Source: Haloarcula halophila
Lineage (GTDB): Archaea > Halobacteriota > Halobacteria > Halobacteriales > Haloarculaceae
Assembly: GCF_029278565.1 (NCBI RefSeq)
Contig: NZ_CP119559.1
Span: forward strand, 2,108,001 to 2,172,000
Direction: 5' to 3'
DNA: 64,000 nucleotides
In this document: positions 40,083 to 46,840 of the stretch, one piece after another
How positions within the stretch are numbered: the first letter of the stretch is position 1
Layout of the letters: each line of letters begins with the position of its first letter
Notes under the pieces: model-generated
What the model saw: only the letters and a program-made list of their open reading frames with translations
Told to the model about the DNA's origin: nothing
Databases searched by the model: none
Translations under genes and position numbers: made by a program

Positions 40083-41201
40083 ATGGTCACACAGCGAGAG
40101 AAACAGGAGTACACGGACGACTATCCCGAAAAGACACTGTACCTCCCCGGCCCGACCGAGGTCCGCGAGGACGTGATCGAGGCGATGGCCCAGCCGATGT
40201 TCGGCCACCGGATGGACCGGATGACCGACCTCTACACCACGATCGTCGAGGACACCAAGGAGTTCCTGGGCACCGACAACGAGGTCATCATCCTCACCGC
40301 CTCGGGAACGGAGTTCTGGGAGGCGACGACGCTGAACCTCGTCGAGGACGACATGCTCGTGGCGACCTCGGGCGCGTTCAGCGAGCGCCAGGCCAACGTC
40401 GCCGACCGCCTCGGAAAGAACGTCGATCGGGTCGAGTACGCCTGGGGCCAGGCGGTCAAGCCCGCGGACATCCGGGACGCCCTCGAAGCGAGCGAGGACG
40501 GCTACGACGCCGTCGGTGTCGTCATGAACGAGACCTCCACGGGCGTGCGCAACCCCGTCGAAGAGATCGGCGACCTCATGGCCGACTACCCGGACACCTA
40601 CTTCGTCGTCGACGCCATCTCCTGTCTGGGCGGCGACCGGATCGACATCGAGGCCCACAACATCGACGCGCTGTTTACCTCTACGCAGAAAGCGTTCGCG
40701 ATGCCGCCGGGGCTGGCCGTCTGTACCGTCAGCGACGCCGCCTACGAGCGGGAACTGGAGAAGGAGTCCGCGTCGTGGTACGGCGGCTTCCAGCGCACGC
40801 TCGACTACTACGACCGGAAGGGCCAGACCCACTCGACGCCGGCGATCCCGATCATGCTGGCCTACCGCAAGCAGATGAAACACATGCTCGACGAGGGTCA
40901 CGACGCCCGCGACCAGCGCCACCGCGAGATGGCCGAGTACACCCGCGAGTGGGCCCGCGAGCACTTCGGCCTCTTCCCCGAGGAGGGGTACGAGTCCCAG
41001 ACTGTGACCTGCATCGAGAACACCCGAGGTATCGACGTGGCAGAGACCGTCGAGGCCGTCTCCGAGGAGTACGACATGGTCTTCTCCAGTGGGTACGGCG
41101 ACCTCAGCGAGGAGTCGTTCCGCATCGGGCACATGGGCGAACACACCGTCGAGTCGATCACGGAACTCACCGACGCTATCGAGGACGTCGCGGATCTGTA
41201 A
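40083..41201 (+). CDS. Class V PLP-dependent aminotransferase (serine/alanine-glyoxylate type)
   Basis: A 372-residue fold-type I enzyme. PGPTEVREDV (about 23) opens the family fold, FGHRMDRM the active site, TASGTEFWEATTLNL the phosphate-binding turn, and FVVDAISCLGGDRIDI the Asp that binds the pyridine nitrogen. The PLP Lys is in TSTQKAFAMPPG (about residue 203). The C-terminal part includes the GRIGHMG-like FRIGHMGEHT. Family members transfer amino groups between serine or alanine and glyoxylate or pyruvate. No partner pathway genes adjoin it. Confidence 0.9.
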   Translation: MVTQREKQEYTDDYPEKTLYLPGPTEVREDVIEAMAQPMFGHRMDRMTDLYTTIVEDTKEFLGTDNEVIILTASGTEFWEATTLNLVEDDMLVATSGAFSERQANVADRLGKNVDRVEYAWGQAVKPADIRDALEASEDGYDAVGVVMNETSTGVRNPVEEIGDLMADYPDTYFVVDAISCLGGDRIDIEAHNIDALFTSTQKAFAMPPGLAVCTVSDAAYERELEKESASWYGGFQRTLDYYDRKGQTHSTPAIPIMLAYRKQMKHMLDEGHDARDQRHREMAEYTREWAREHFGLFPEEGYESQTVTCIENTRGIDVAETVEAVSEEYDMVFSSGYGDLSEESFRIGHMGEHTVESITELTDAIEDVADL

Positions 41202-41345
41202 CCTATCTGACTAGTGTGTGCCGGGTCCGTGCAGGGCACCTGGTTGTCTCTCGGGAGACGACGGCTCCGTGTGCTTTCCAGCGGTGTAACCGGATGTGTA
41301 CGATCTATCACATTAATTATCAGAATTTGAACTGCGGGGCGCAGA

Positions 41346-41352
41346 TATAAAT
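41346..41352 (+). promoter_or_regulatory. TATA box of the transducer-opsin operon
   Basis: TATAAAT lies 25-31 nt before the transducer ATG at 41377, which is the usual haloarchaeal placement for a leaderless transcript. It is the only promoter-like element seen for both genes. Confidence 0.6.
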
Positions 41353-41376
41353 CCGCTTTTCCATTTCCGTCCGTAT

Positions 41377-42969
41377 ATGAGTACGACACGGCTTTCCGGG
41401 CAGATCACTGCCCACTACAGCAGGCGGATCGGCGCGGCGTTGCTCGTCACGCTCGCCGTGACCCTCGCGTTCGGGACGCTCTTTGCAGTCCACGCGGCGA
41501 ATACGGGAGCGGGGACGGCGTCGGTCGCCGGGACACTGTTCGTCGTGGTACTGAACATCGGCCTGCTCGGGATCGTCCTCGGCGGGAACGCCGCCGTCGC
41601 GCTCCGTCGGCTGACCGACGCCGCGGAGGCGATCGAAGACGGCGACCTCGAAGCCAGTCCCGAGGTCGAACGCAGCGACGAGTTCGCCGATCTCGCAACG
41701 GCGTTCGACAACATGCGTGAGTCACTCGGCGAGGCCTTAGAGGAGTCGGAAGCCGCCCGCCAGGACGCCGAAGCCGCCCGCGAAGAGGCCGAGACCGCCC
41801 AGCGGGAGGCGGAAGCGTTCAACGAACGGCTCATCGAGCACGCGACAGAGATCGGCGACGCGATGACCGCGGCCGCCGACGGTGACTTCACTCGCCGGTT
41901 GGAGACGGACGTCGACGTCGACGCGGTCGAACGGATCGCCGTGGCCTACGAGGAGATGAGCGGCGGGCTCTCCGAGACGGTCGAGGAGATCCGTGAGTTC
42001 GCCGCCGTCGTCGAGTCCGCGAGCGACTCCGTCGCGGCCGACGCGGCCGACGTCGAGCGACGGAACCAGGCCCTCGCCGACGACATCCGGGAGTTGGCCA
42101 CCGATATCGAACAGCAGGCGGATCGACTCGAAACGGCGATCGCGGAGACGAACGACCTCTCGGCGACGATCGAGGAGGTGGCCTCGACGACCGACGAGGT
42201 CGCACAGCAGTCCAGCGAGGCGGCCGACGCCGGGACGACCGGTGCCGAACGTGTCGAGGAGGCGATCGACGCCATCCAGACCGTCGAGGACGCCGTCGCA
42301 CAACTAGACGCGCTCGTCGCGGAGTTGGACGACCGGATGGGTGAGGTCGAGGCGACGACCGGACTCGTCGACGACATCGCCGAACAGACGAACATCCTCG
42401 CGCTGAACGCCAACATCGAGGCGTCACACGCGAGCGAGGCCGGGTCCGGGTTCGCCGTCGTCGCCGACGAGGTCAAACAGCTCGCCGAGGAGACCCAGGC
42501 CGCCATCGACGAGATCGAGACGATCATCGCCGGCGCACGGGCCGACGTCGACGACGTGACCGACGAGATGGACGCGACCAGCGAACGCATCGACGCCAGC
42601 GTGGAGACGATCACCGCTGCGGGCGAGACGCTCGCGCAACTCACCGATACCGTCGACGACGTCGACGACGCGATGGGCGAGATCGCACGGGCGACCGACG
42701 ACGCCGCGGCCGCGACGGAAGAAGTAGCTGCGACGATCGACACCGTCGGCGAGGCCGCGGCCGACGTGGCCGACCGTTCGCACAGTCTCGCCGACACCGC
42801 TGCCGAGACGGCAGAGACGATGAGCGACGTACGGAGACAGGCCGACGACCTCTCCGACCGGACGGCCGAACTCATCGACCGGCTCGCGGCGTTCGAGACA
42901 CGTTCGGGGAGCGGCGAGTCGGCAGGGACTGCCGGAGCGGCGACCGCAGTTGGTGATGCCGATGATTAG
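41377..42969 (+). CDS. Haloarchaeal chemotaxis transducer (Htr-type, no extracellular domain)
   Basis: A 530-residue membrane receptor. Two N-terminal helices (about 18-40 and 50-75, separated by only ~10 residues outside) mean no ligand domain, as in opsin-coupled transducers. HAMP region follows (RRLTDAAEAIEDGDLE, about 77-125), a coiled coil, a second HAMP-like stretch (about 150-205) and the methyl-accepting signalling domain. The hairpin tip (336-365: DIAEQTNILALNANIEA...GFAVVADEVKQLAEE) binds CheA/CheW. The usual ARAGE of the tip reads SHASE here. TM2 carries Asn60 and Asn71. The opsin-like gene starts inside its last codons, so the two are coupled; this gene order is that of the known htr-sop pairs. 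Confidence 0.92.
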   Translation: MSTTRLSGQITAHYSRRIGAALLVTLAVTLAFGTLFAVHAANTGAGTASVAGTLFVVVLNIGLLGIVLGGNAAVALRRLTDAAEAIEDGDLEASPEVERSDEFADLATAFDNMRESLGEALEESEAARQDAEAAREEAETAQREAEAFNERLIEHATEIGDAMTAAADGDFTRRLETDVDVDAVERIAVAYEEMSGGLSETVEEIREFAAVVESASDSVAADAADVERRNQALADDIRELATDIEQQADRLETAIAETNDLSATIEEVASTTDEVAQQSSEAADAGTTGAERVEEAIDAIQTVEDAVAQLDALVAELDDRMGEVEATTGLVDDIAEQTNILALNANIEASHASEAGSGFAVVADEVKQLAEETQAAIDEIETIIAGARADVDDVTDEMDATSERIDASVETITAAGETLAQLTDTVDDVDDAMGEIARATDDAAAATEEVAATIDTVGEAAADVADRSHSLADTAAETAETMSDVRRQADDLSDRTAELIDRLAAFETRSGSGESAGTAGAATAVGDADD

Positions 42970-43684
42970 CGAAACGACGGTCTACGGATCAGCCGCCGCC
43001 GTCAGTGCGATCGCGACGGTCGCCTTTCTCGTCTGGATCCGCCGGGTCCCGGCTCGAAAGCGTCCGTACTGCTATCCGGTCGTCGGTGTCGTCGGCCTCT
43101 CGGCAGTCCTAACCGCACTGGTGGCGCTGGATGGGTTCTACATCGCCGGAACGGGACAGACGCTCCCCGGTGTGATCGACGACTTCGTCGCCTACACCGT
43201 GTTGTGGGTCGCTGCCGCCGCCATCGCCGGCGAATCCCGCCGAATGCTTGCGCTCCTCGCAGTGATCCCGATGGTCCAGGTCGTTGCGTTCAACGTCGCG
43301 GCGGTCGTCGGCGGTCTCGTCGGCCTCGTCGGGTTGGCTCTCCTCGTGGTCGGGCAGGTCCTGATCGCGTACCTCTTTCTGGGTCCGATCTGGGAACGGA
43401 CCGACTCGCTGCCCGACGGACAGCGCCTCCTCCACTGGAAGTCCCGGAACCTCCTGTTGTTCCTCATCGGGATGCTCGTGGTCTTTGCGCTCCTGTCGGT
43501 CGGTCAGATATTCGACACCTTCGTCACCGCCGTCCTCAGTGAGTATATGGGGCTGTTGATCAGGGTCGGGTTCGCCGGCTTCCTGCTCGCCAACGTCGAC
43601 GCGATCGATCCGGCGGCGATCGAACTGTTCGGTTCGTCCGCCGATCGGCCTGCGGCCGAGCCCACCGGGAGCGGCGCCGACTGA
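42962..43684 (+). CDS. Opsin-like 7-TM protein lacking the retinal-binding Lys
   Basis: A 240-residue microbial-rhodopsin homologue with seven helices. Helix G reads EYMGLLIRVGFAGFLLANVDAI, aligning with sensory rhodopsin II Y199...K205VGFGFIALDAA: Tyr195 matches Tyr199 (which contacts the transducer), but Arg201 replaces the Schiff-base Lys. In helix C my alignment puts Ala77 at the counter-ion Asp. Helix F starts RNLLLFLIG, like RNLTVVLW. So covalent retinal binding looks impossible. A class of lysine-less haloarchaeal opsins has been reported and proposed to sense non-light stimuli. ATG 42962 overlaps the transducer stop by 8 nt; an ATG at 42956 and earlier TTG/GTG starts are alternatives. 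Confidence 0.88.
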   Translation: MISETTVYGSAAAVSAIATVAFLVWIRRVPARKRPYCYPVVGVVGLSAVLTALVALDGFYIAGTGQTLPGVIDDFVAYTVLWVAAAAIAGESRRMLALLAVIPMVQVVAFNVAAVVGGLVGLVGLALLVVGQVLIAYLFLGPIWERTDSLPDGQRLLHWKSRNLLLFLIGMLVVFALLSVGQIFDTFVTAVLSEYMGLLIRVGFAGFLLANVDAIDPAAIELFGSSADRPAAEPTGSGAD

Positions 43685-43727
43685 CGCGAGCCACCCCATG
43701 AGAACCGGCGTGCGGAGGATCCCATAG

Positions 43728-46840
<3,113 letters not shown>

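Follow-up and report, generated by a model that had tools for sequence, protein, structure and literature searches.

The window analyzed in this study, a 64,000-nucleotide stretch of the 4.04-Mb genome of Haloarcula halophila, carries two overlapping genes on the forward strand, to which all coordinates below refer. The first (41377..42969, stop codon included) encodes a 530-residue transducer of the HtrII type, and the second (42962..43684, stop included) a 240-residue opsin-related protein (ORP) of group A with seven transmembrane (TM) helices. By direct reading, the ATG of the ORP gene lies over the transducer stop in an 8-nt overlap, ATGATTAG (42962..42969). This same-strand, transducer-first arrangement agrees with the original prediction of htr and opsin-like genes overlapping in the htr-then-sop order. 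Long open frames had raised the suspicion of an opsin-transducer fusion, but the transducer was seen to occupy its own frame upstream, overlapping the long one. The pair is flanked upstream by an aminotransferase gene and downstream by ligA. A TATA-box-like TATAAAT (41346..41352; direct reading), ~25-31 nt 5' of the transducer ATG, is the putative promoter of a leaderless htr transcript. The closest relatives have an AT-rich element at the equivalent position; a loose TATA-like pattern occurs in only 12 of 55 relatives and is therefore not a family-wide signature.

The transducer has Pfam matches well above the cut-offs (MCPsignal, 8.8e-34; HAMP, 3.8e-13). Its first HAMP domain comprises residues 75-117 (41599..41727; PF00672) and its MCP signalling domain residues 295-457 (42259..42747; PF00015), which include IAEQTNILALNANIEAS, the hairpin that contacts CheA/CheW. 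In PDB, NpHtrII of Natronomonas pharaonis is the best match for the N-terminal 211 residues (E 1.3e-18, first 141 residues matching). Alignment to 2f95_B places TM2 at approximately residues 49-72 (41521..41592) and, within it, Asn60 (codon 41554-41556) at the position of NpHtrII Asn74. Thus, the features of HtrII-type proteins, i.e., two TM helices, the TM2 Asn74, HAMP and the MCP signalling domain, are all present. The two helices are separated by a very short outer loop, shorter than that of NpHtrII, and there is no outer domain, as had been predicted when an extracellular ligand domain was reported missing. The genome encodes 22 MCPs over the family cut-off, of which only this transducer and that of sensory rhodopsin II (SRII) match the TM1-TM2-HAMP profile of group-A transducers strongly. 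It also encodes a CheW-domain protein of the size of CheA, and there are additional matches to the CheW domain.

Opsin fold and altered retinal pocket

The ORP was recognized neither by Pfam, including its rhodopsin model, nor by NCBIfam; weak CysZ-like and permease matches were dismissed as membrane-protein noise. In a phmmer search of PDB, the only entries below E 0.01 were those of Natronomonas pharaonis sensory rhodopsin II (NpSRII; E 3.6e-5, residues 1-215), and a profile of 31 ORP relatives matched NpSRII at E 2.8e-21. An AlphaFold2 model built from 33 sequences (pLDDT 90.2, pTM 0.84) has the seven-helix type-1 opsin fold, and its best fold match is again NpSRII (TM 0.81/0.88, rmsd 2.1-2.3 A, 23-24% identity). 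With the HAMP and MCP domains of its neighbor, these matches bear out the assignment of the two genes as a transducer and an opsin homologue.

Alignment to NpSRII puts Arg201 (AGG, 43562..43564) at the position of the Schiff-base Lys205, and Tyr195 (43544..43546) at that of Tyr199, the transducer contact in helix G; both residues had been called correctly. No alternative Lys was seen on inspection of helix G, the only Lys residues of the ORP being K33 and K160. One residue of the original prediction did not hold. Ala77, proposed to replace the counter-ion Asp, falls at the position of Thr79; the counter-ion itself, Asp75, is retained as Asp73, which with the following Asp74 (43178..43183) corresponds to NpSRII Asp75 and Trp76. 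Tyr78 (43193..43195), at the position of Thr80, is found in 52 of 52 members of our first group-A set.

Most of the retinal pocket is altered. The changes from NpSRII to the ORP include W76 to D74, T80 to Y78, W171 to I169, Y174 to L172, P175 to V173, W178 to A176 and T204 to I200. The ORP thus has none of the pocket aromatics of a canonical SRII (W76, W171, Y174, W178), and it is without Lys205. Also absent is the Y174-T204 photo-relay, which is essential in SRII (PMC3274258). Other positions map as T189 to D185, V108 to Q106, F127 to L125, R72 to G70 and Y51 to T51.

Placement among haloarchaeal opsin-related proteins

With the P0001 query, 104 of the 392 genomes in the order proved to contain relatives. 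A single-sequence scan of genome contigs recovered no ORP relatives; an alignment query gave 34 loci, and further searches and removal of duplicates led to an alignment of 182 opsins. By NpSRII position, these include 63 proteins with R205 and Y80, 23 with R205 and T, G or another residue at 80, 54 whose residue 205 is hydrophobic, nine with His, 28 with Lys and five with S, T or Y. Every lysine-less opsin aligned has Tyr at position 199. In a quick tree, the window ORP falls within a 66-row clade (SH-aLRT 100) that contains the Halorubrum Arg-type ORPs, is separate from the Lys opsins and has R205 and Y80 in 63 of its 66 rows.

Group A, as described by Becker et al. 2016 (PMC4915679), has Arg at 205, D76, L174 and A178, with conserved Y199 and D189. 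The window ORP shares the replacements of Lys205 by Arg, W76 by Asp, Y174 by Leu and W178 by Ala, the retained Tyr and Asp (Y195, D185), the loss of R72 and Y51, and an adjacent HAMP/MCP transducer, which that study reported in 15 of 16 cases. It differs at position 108, where it has Gln (Q106) whereas Met was reported for group A, and at position 127, with Leu (L125) in contrast to the T/S of most ORPs; the paper gives both Met108 and Thr/Ser127 as observed residues, not as definitions. Gln108 is the usual residue in the Haloarculaceae branch, where, by its aligned residues, the window ORP sits. These features and the clade match the published description, and the pair, judged by sequence, is therefore a new member of group A, a class already described; Haloarcula and Halomicrobium members even appear in the tree legend of PMC4915679. 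The membership proposed originally, in the reported class of lysine-less haloarchaeal opsins, was confirmed residue by residue and by the tree. In all, the earlier observation is real and its interpretation is supported except for the counter-ion.

The residue at 205 is associated with the presence of an acid nearby. Of the 86 lysine-less opsins that have Arg205, 85 carry Asp or Glu at 75 or 76, the sole exception (L117) having Asn-Asn with its Arg. With a hydrophobic residue, S, T or Y at 205, no acid occurs at 75/76 (59/59), and with His it occurs in four of nine. Within the group-A clade, the three members without Arg205 are also without the acid. On the tree, only two tree-independent supported pairs were available and the sign test was not significant; few independent changes have occurred, so the association is without significance there. 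The pattern fits a replacement of the Schiff base and counter-ion by an Arg-acid pair, as read from aligned residues. That the Arg-Asp pair acts as a switch is a tentative idea that we hold with less than even confidence. Neither this association nor the transducer-side Asn/His74 described below was found in the text of PMC4915679, and the two are our additions to that study.

Several subsets of the alignment have features of their own. The group-A members without Arg205 are L056 and L301 (Ser205) and L302 (Tyr205). Six ORPs with His at 205 (L075, L076, L077, L078, L304, L311) have the transducer downstream, i.e., in reversed order, and the L075 transducer has ~300 residues ahead of HAMP; the text of PMC4915679 names only Arg and hydrophobic groups at this position. 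A separate Arg205 clade of 23 rows (e.g., L057, L059, L060, L062, L266, L270, L314-L316, L318-L320) retains R72, D/E75, Y174 and mostly T204, and overlaps its transducer by 4 nt in 23 of 23 cases. To judge from its residues, it looks like a sensory rhodopsin altered mainly at Lys and at W178 (Gly). Finally, three group-A ORP copies (L121, L035, L058) have a possible in-frame stop or frameshift, and no transducer adjoins L035 or L121.

Association with the transducer and with retinal synthesis

Sufficient flanking DNA to show a transducer was available for 62 group-A loci, and in 60 of these the transducer lies directly upstream of the ORP. The overlap between the two genes is 8 nt in 44 of the 60 pairs and 4 nt in 13. 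An arrangement this uniform argues that the association is not due to chance. Position 74 of the transducer, aligned in 60 of 60 group-A pairs, is Asn in 47 and His in 13, against N (16), S (6) or G (3) among light-sensing pairs. A hydrogen bond between Tyr199 and Asn74 is documented in the NpSRII/HtrII complex (PMC3274258, PMC5292967). With contact residues retained on both sides (Tyr195 and Asn60), the predicted coupling of the opsin homologue to the transducer is supported.

The two genes also come and go together. We compared the orthologous site, aminotransferase-[htr-orp]-ligA (window 40083-45857), with loci L325-L354 of the genus: seven genomes have both genes, 20 have neither and none has a single gene, with three more loci lacking a visible aminotransferase. 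In related genera of the family, aminotransferase and ligA also flank the pair. It follows that htr and orp behave as a single unit, whether retained, lost or moved. The neighbors were rejected as a clue to the stimulus, since aminotransferase and ligA are conserved in place with no obvious functional relation.

Such a distribution, patchy within the genus (7 of 32 genomes), and the stops or frameshifts in some relatives (L032, L035, L058) might suggest that the pair is the decaying remnant of a sensory rhodopsin. We regard this as highly improbable: both frames are intact in the window, the clade is large and old with invariant residues, the genes are retained or lost together, and the ORP is under purifying selection, with dN/dS below 1 in 10 of 10 close pairs (0.19-0.56 by a simple count method).

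Another reading makes the ORP a structural partner that folds or holds the transducer, the signal entering elsewhere, i.e., through the cytoplasm, the membrane state or methylation. It would suit a transducer without an outer domain. The best-conserved ORP residues, which include the transducer-contact Tyr and a cytoplasmic K-R-N motif while the outer part and core vary, are in line with it, as is a divergence faster than that of SRII (within-genus identity of ~60% for ORP versus 75-92% for SRII). A mere scaffold, however, needs neither the invariant core Tyr78 nor the near-invariant Arg201 with its adjoining acid, and we find this reading unlikely.

Among 54 genomes with a group-A protein, seven (G393, G191, G098, G104, G136, G269, G336; 99-100% complete) have no canonical rhodopsins, and all seven are also without the BCD retinal synthase. 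In G336, the sole Pfam rhodopsin match is the ORP itself, and G393, which belongs to the genus of the window, retains the pair at the syntenic site. The same had been reported by Becker et al. for eight species (PMC4915679) and is reproduced here with a new sample. In a further genome, G347 (L120, L031), a group-A ORP occurs along with one canonical rhodopsin match, and BCD retinal synthase was not found.

The window genome itself has two BCD matches, i.e., it makes retinal, and four canonical rhodopsins at G000:C1:2227053-2230730 (L001), G000:C1:1363223-1366885 (L002), G000:C1:770908-774558 (L003) and G000:C1:537285-540959 (L004). Two are pump-like with D75, one has Thr75 (halorhodopsin-like), and L003 is an SRII adjoining its own transducer. 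In this SRII-HtrII pair (L003/L176), the transducer likewise matches the TM2-HAMP profile strongly; the pair differs from that in the window in that Lys205 is retained and that TM2 of the L176 transducer is preceded by a large N-terminal segment.

A retinal-making host with four rhodopsins and the retained counter-ion Asp would be compatible with an ORP that has remained a photoreceptor and binds retinal, or a different polyene, with no Schiff base involved. Bacteriorhodopsin deprived of its Lys can function, though less efficiently, with aminated retinylidene compounds (work cited in PMC4915679). Nevertheless, such a photoreceptor is quite improbable in view of the lost pocket residues (W76, W171, Y174, W178, P175) and relay, the seven genomes above and published spectroscopy. 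Becker et al. 2016 (PMC4915679) saw no absorption band with retinal for two ORPs from other species, one belonging to group A; their report of a missing band covers the ORP of Halorubrum distributum. The loss of most pocket residues and the pair's presence in rhodopsin- and BCD-free genomes support the proposal of a retinal-independent receptor.

Proposed mechanism of a two-protein receptor

The best explanation, which we consider fairly probable, is a two-protein, retinal-independent taxis receptor with the ORP as the sensor and the htr product as its dedicated transducer. That the two form a functional retinal-independent sensor is likely. The pair is similar to NpSRII/HtrII in fold, gene order, overlapping genes, Tyr199-Asn74 contact residues, and HAMP and signalling domains, and differs in that its ORP has no Schiff-base Lys, retinal pocket or Y174-T204 relay. 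In SRII/HtrII, the signal proceeds from a tilt of helix F through rotation of TM2 and HAMP to CheA.

By analogy, the ORP would dock on TM2 of the transducer through an SRII-type contact, Tyr195-Asn60. The stimulus would be something other than light, probably a small molecule or an ion; on reaching the former retinal cavity, it would shift helices F/G so that TM2 is turned, and this turn would alter CheA activity via HAMP and the signalling hairpin. We infer the physical binding of the two proteins and the direction of signalling; the action of the stimulus near the old retinal site and the role of the pair in taxis are likewise presumed. Signalling via the SRII-type interface is most likely, perhaps with gating by the Arg-Asp pair: Arg201, facing Asp73/Asp74, would replace the Schiff base and counter-ion, possibly as a lock that responds to a ligand, to pH or to voltage. 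The chance that the stimulus is specifically a small molecule is about even. No stimulus, binding or taxis phenotype of a haloarchaeal ORP was reported in the literature found, and the titles and abstracts of post-2016 opsin papers citing Becker et al. describe no functional test of haloarchaeal ORPs. Also against this explanation, MS of native cells did not detect ORP protein (PMC4915679).

If the proposed mechanism is true, type-1 opsins would not be confined to light reception and could also work as general membrane receptors, much as the type-2 opsins form a branch within the GPCRs. A bolder and rather doubtful extension is that the haloarchaeal rhodopsin-transducer complex was turned into a family of GPCR-like chemoreceptors, with an Arg205-Asp75/76 ion-pair switch in place of the protonated Schiff base and counter-ion, and a Tyr199-Asn/His74 signal contact; its several parallel versions (with Arg at 205 and Arg72 either present or absent, with His, or with a hydrophobic residue at 205) would then be receptors for different stimuli. 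In this genome, the pair is intact, a chemotaxis system is present, the SRII pair provides an internal control, and the site has natural presence/absence variants, which makes the ORP stimulus directly testable in a genome of the Haloarcula group. In the closest relative, G395 (L326), the site holds ~760 bp without the pair.
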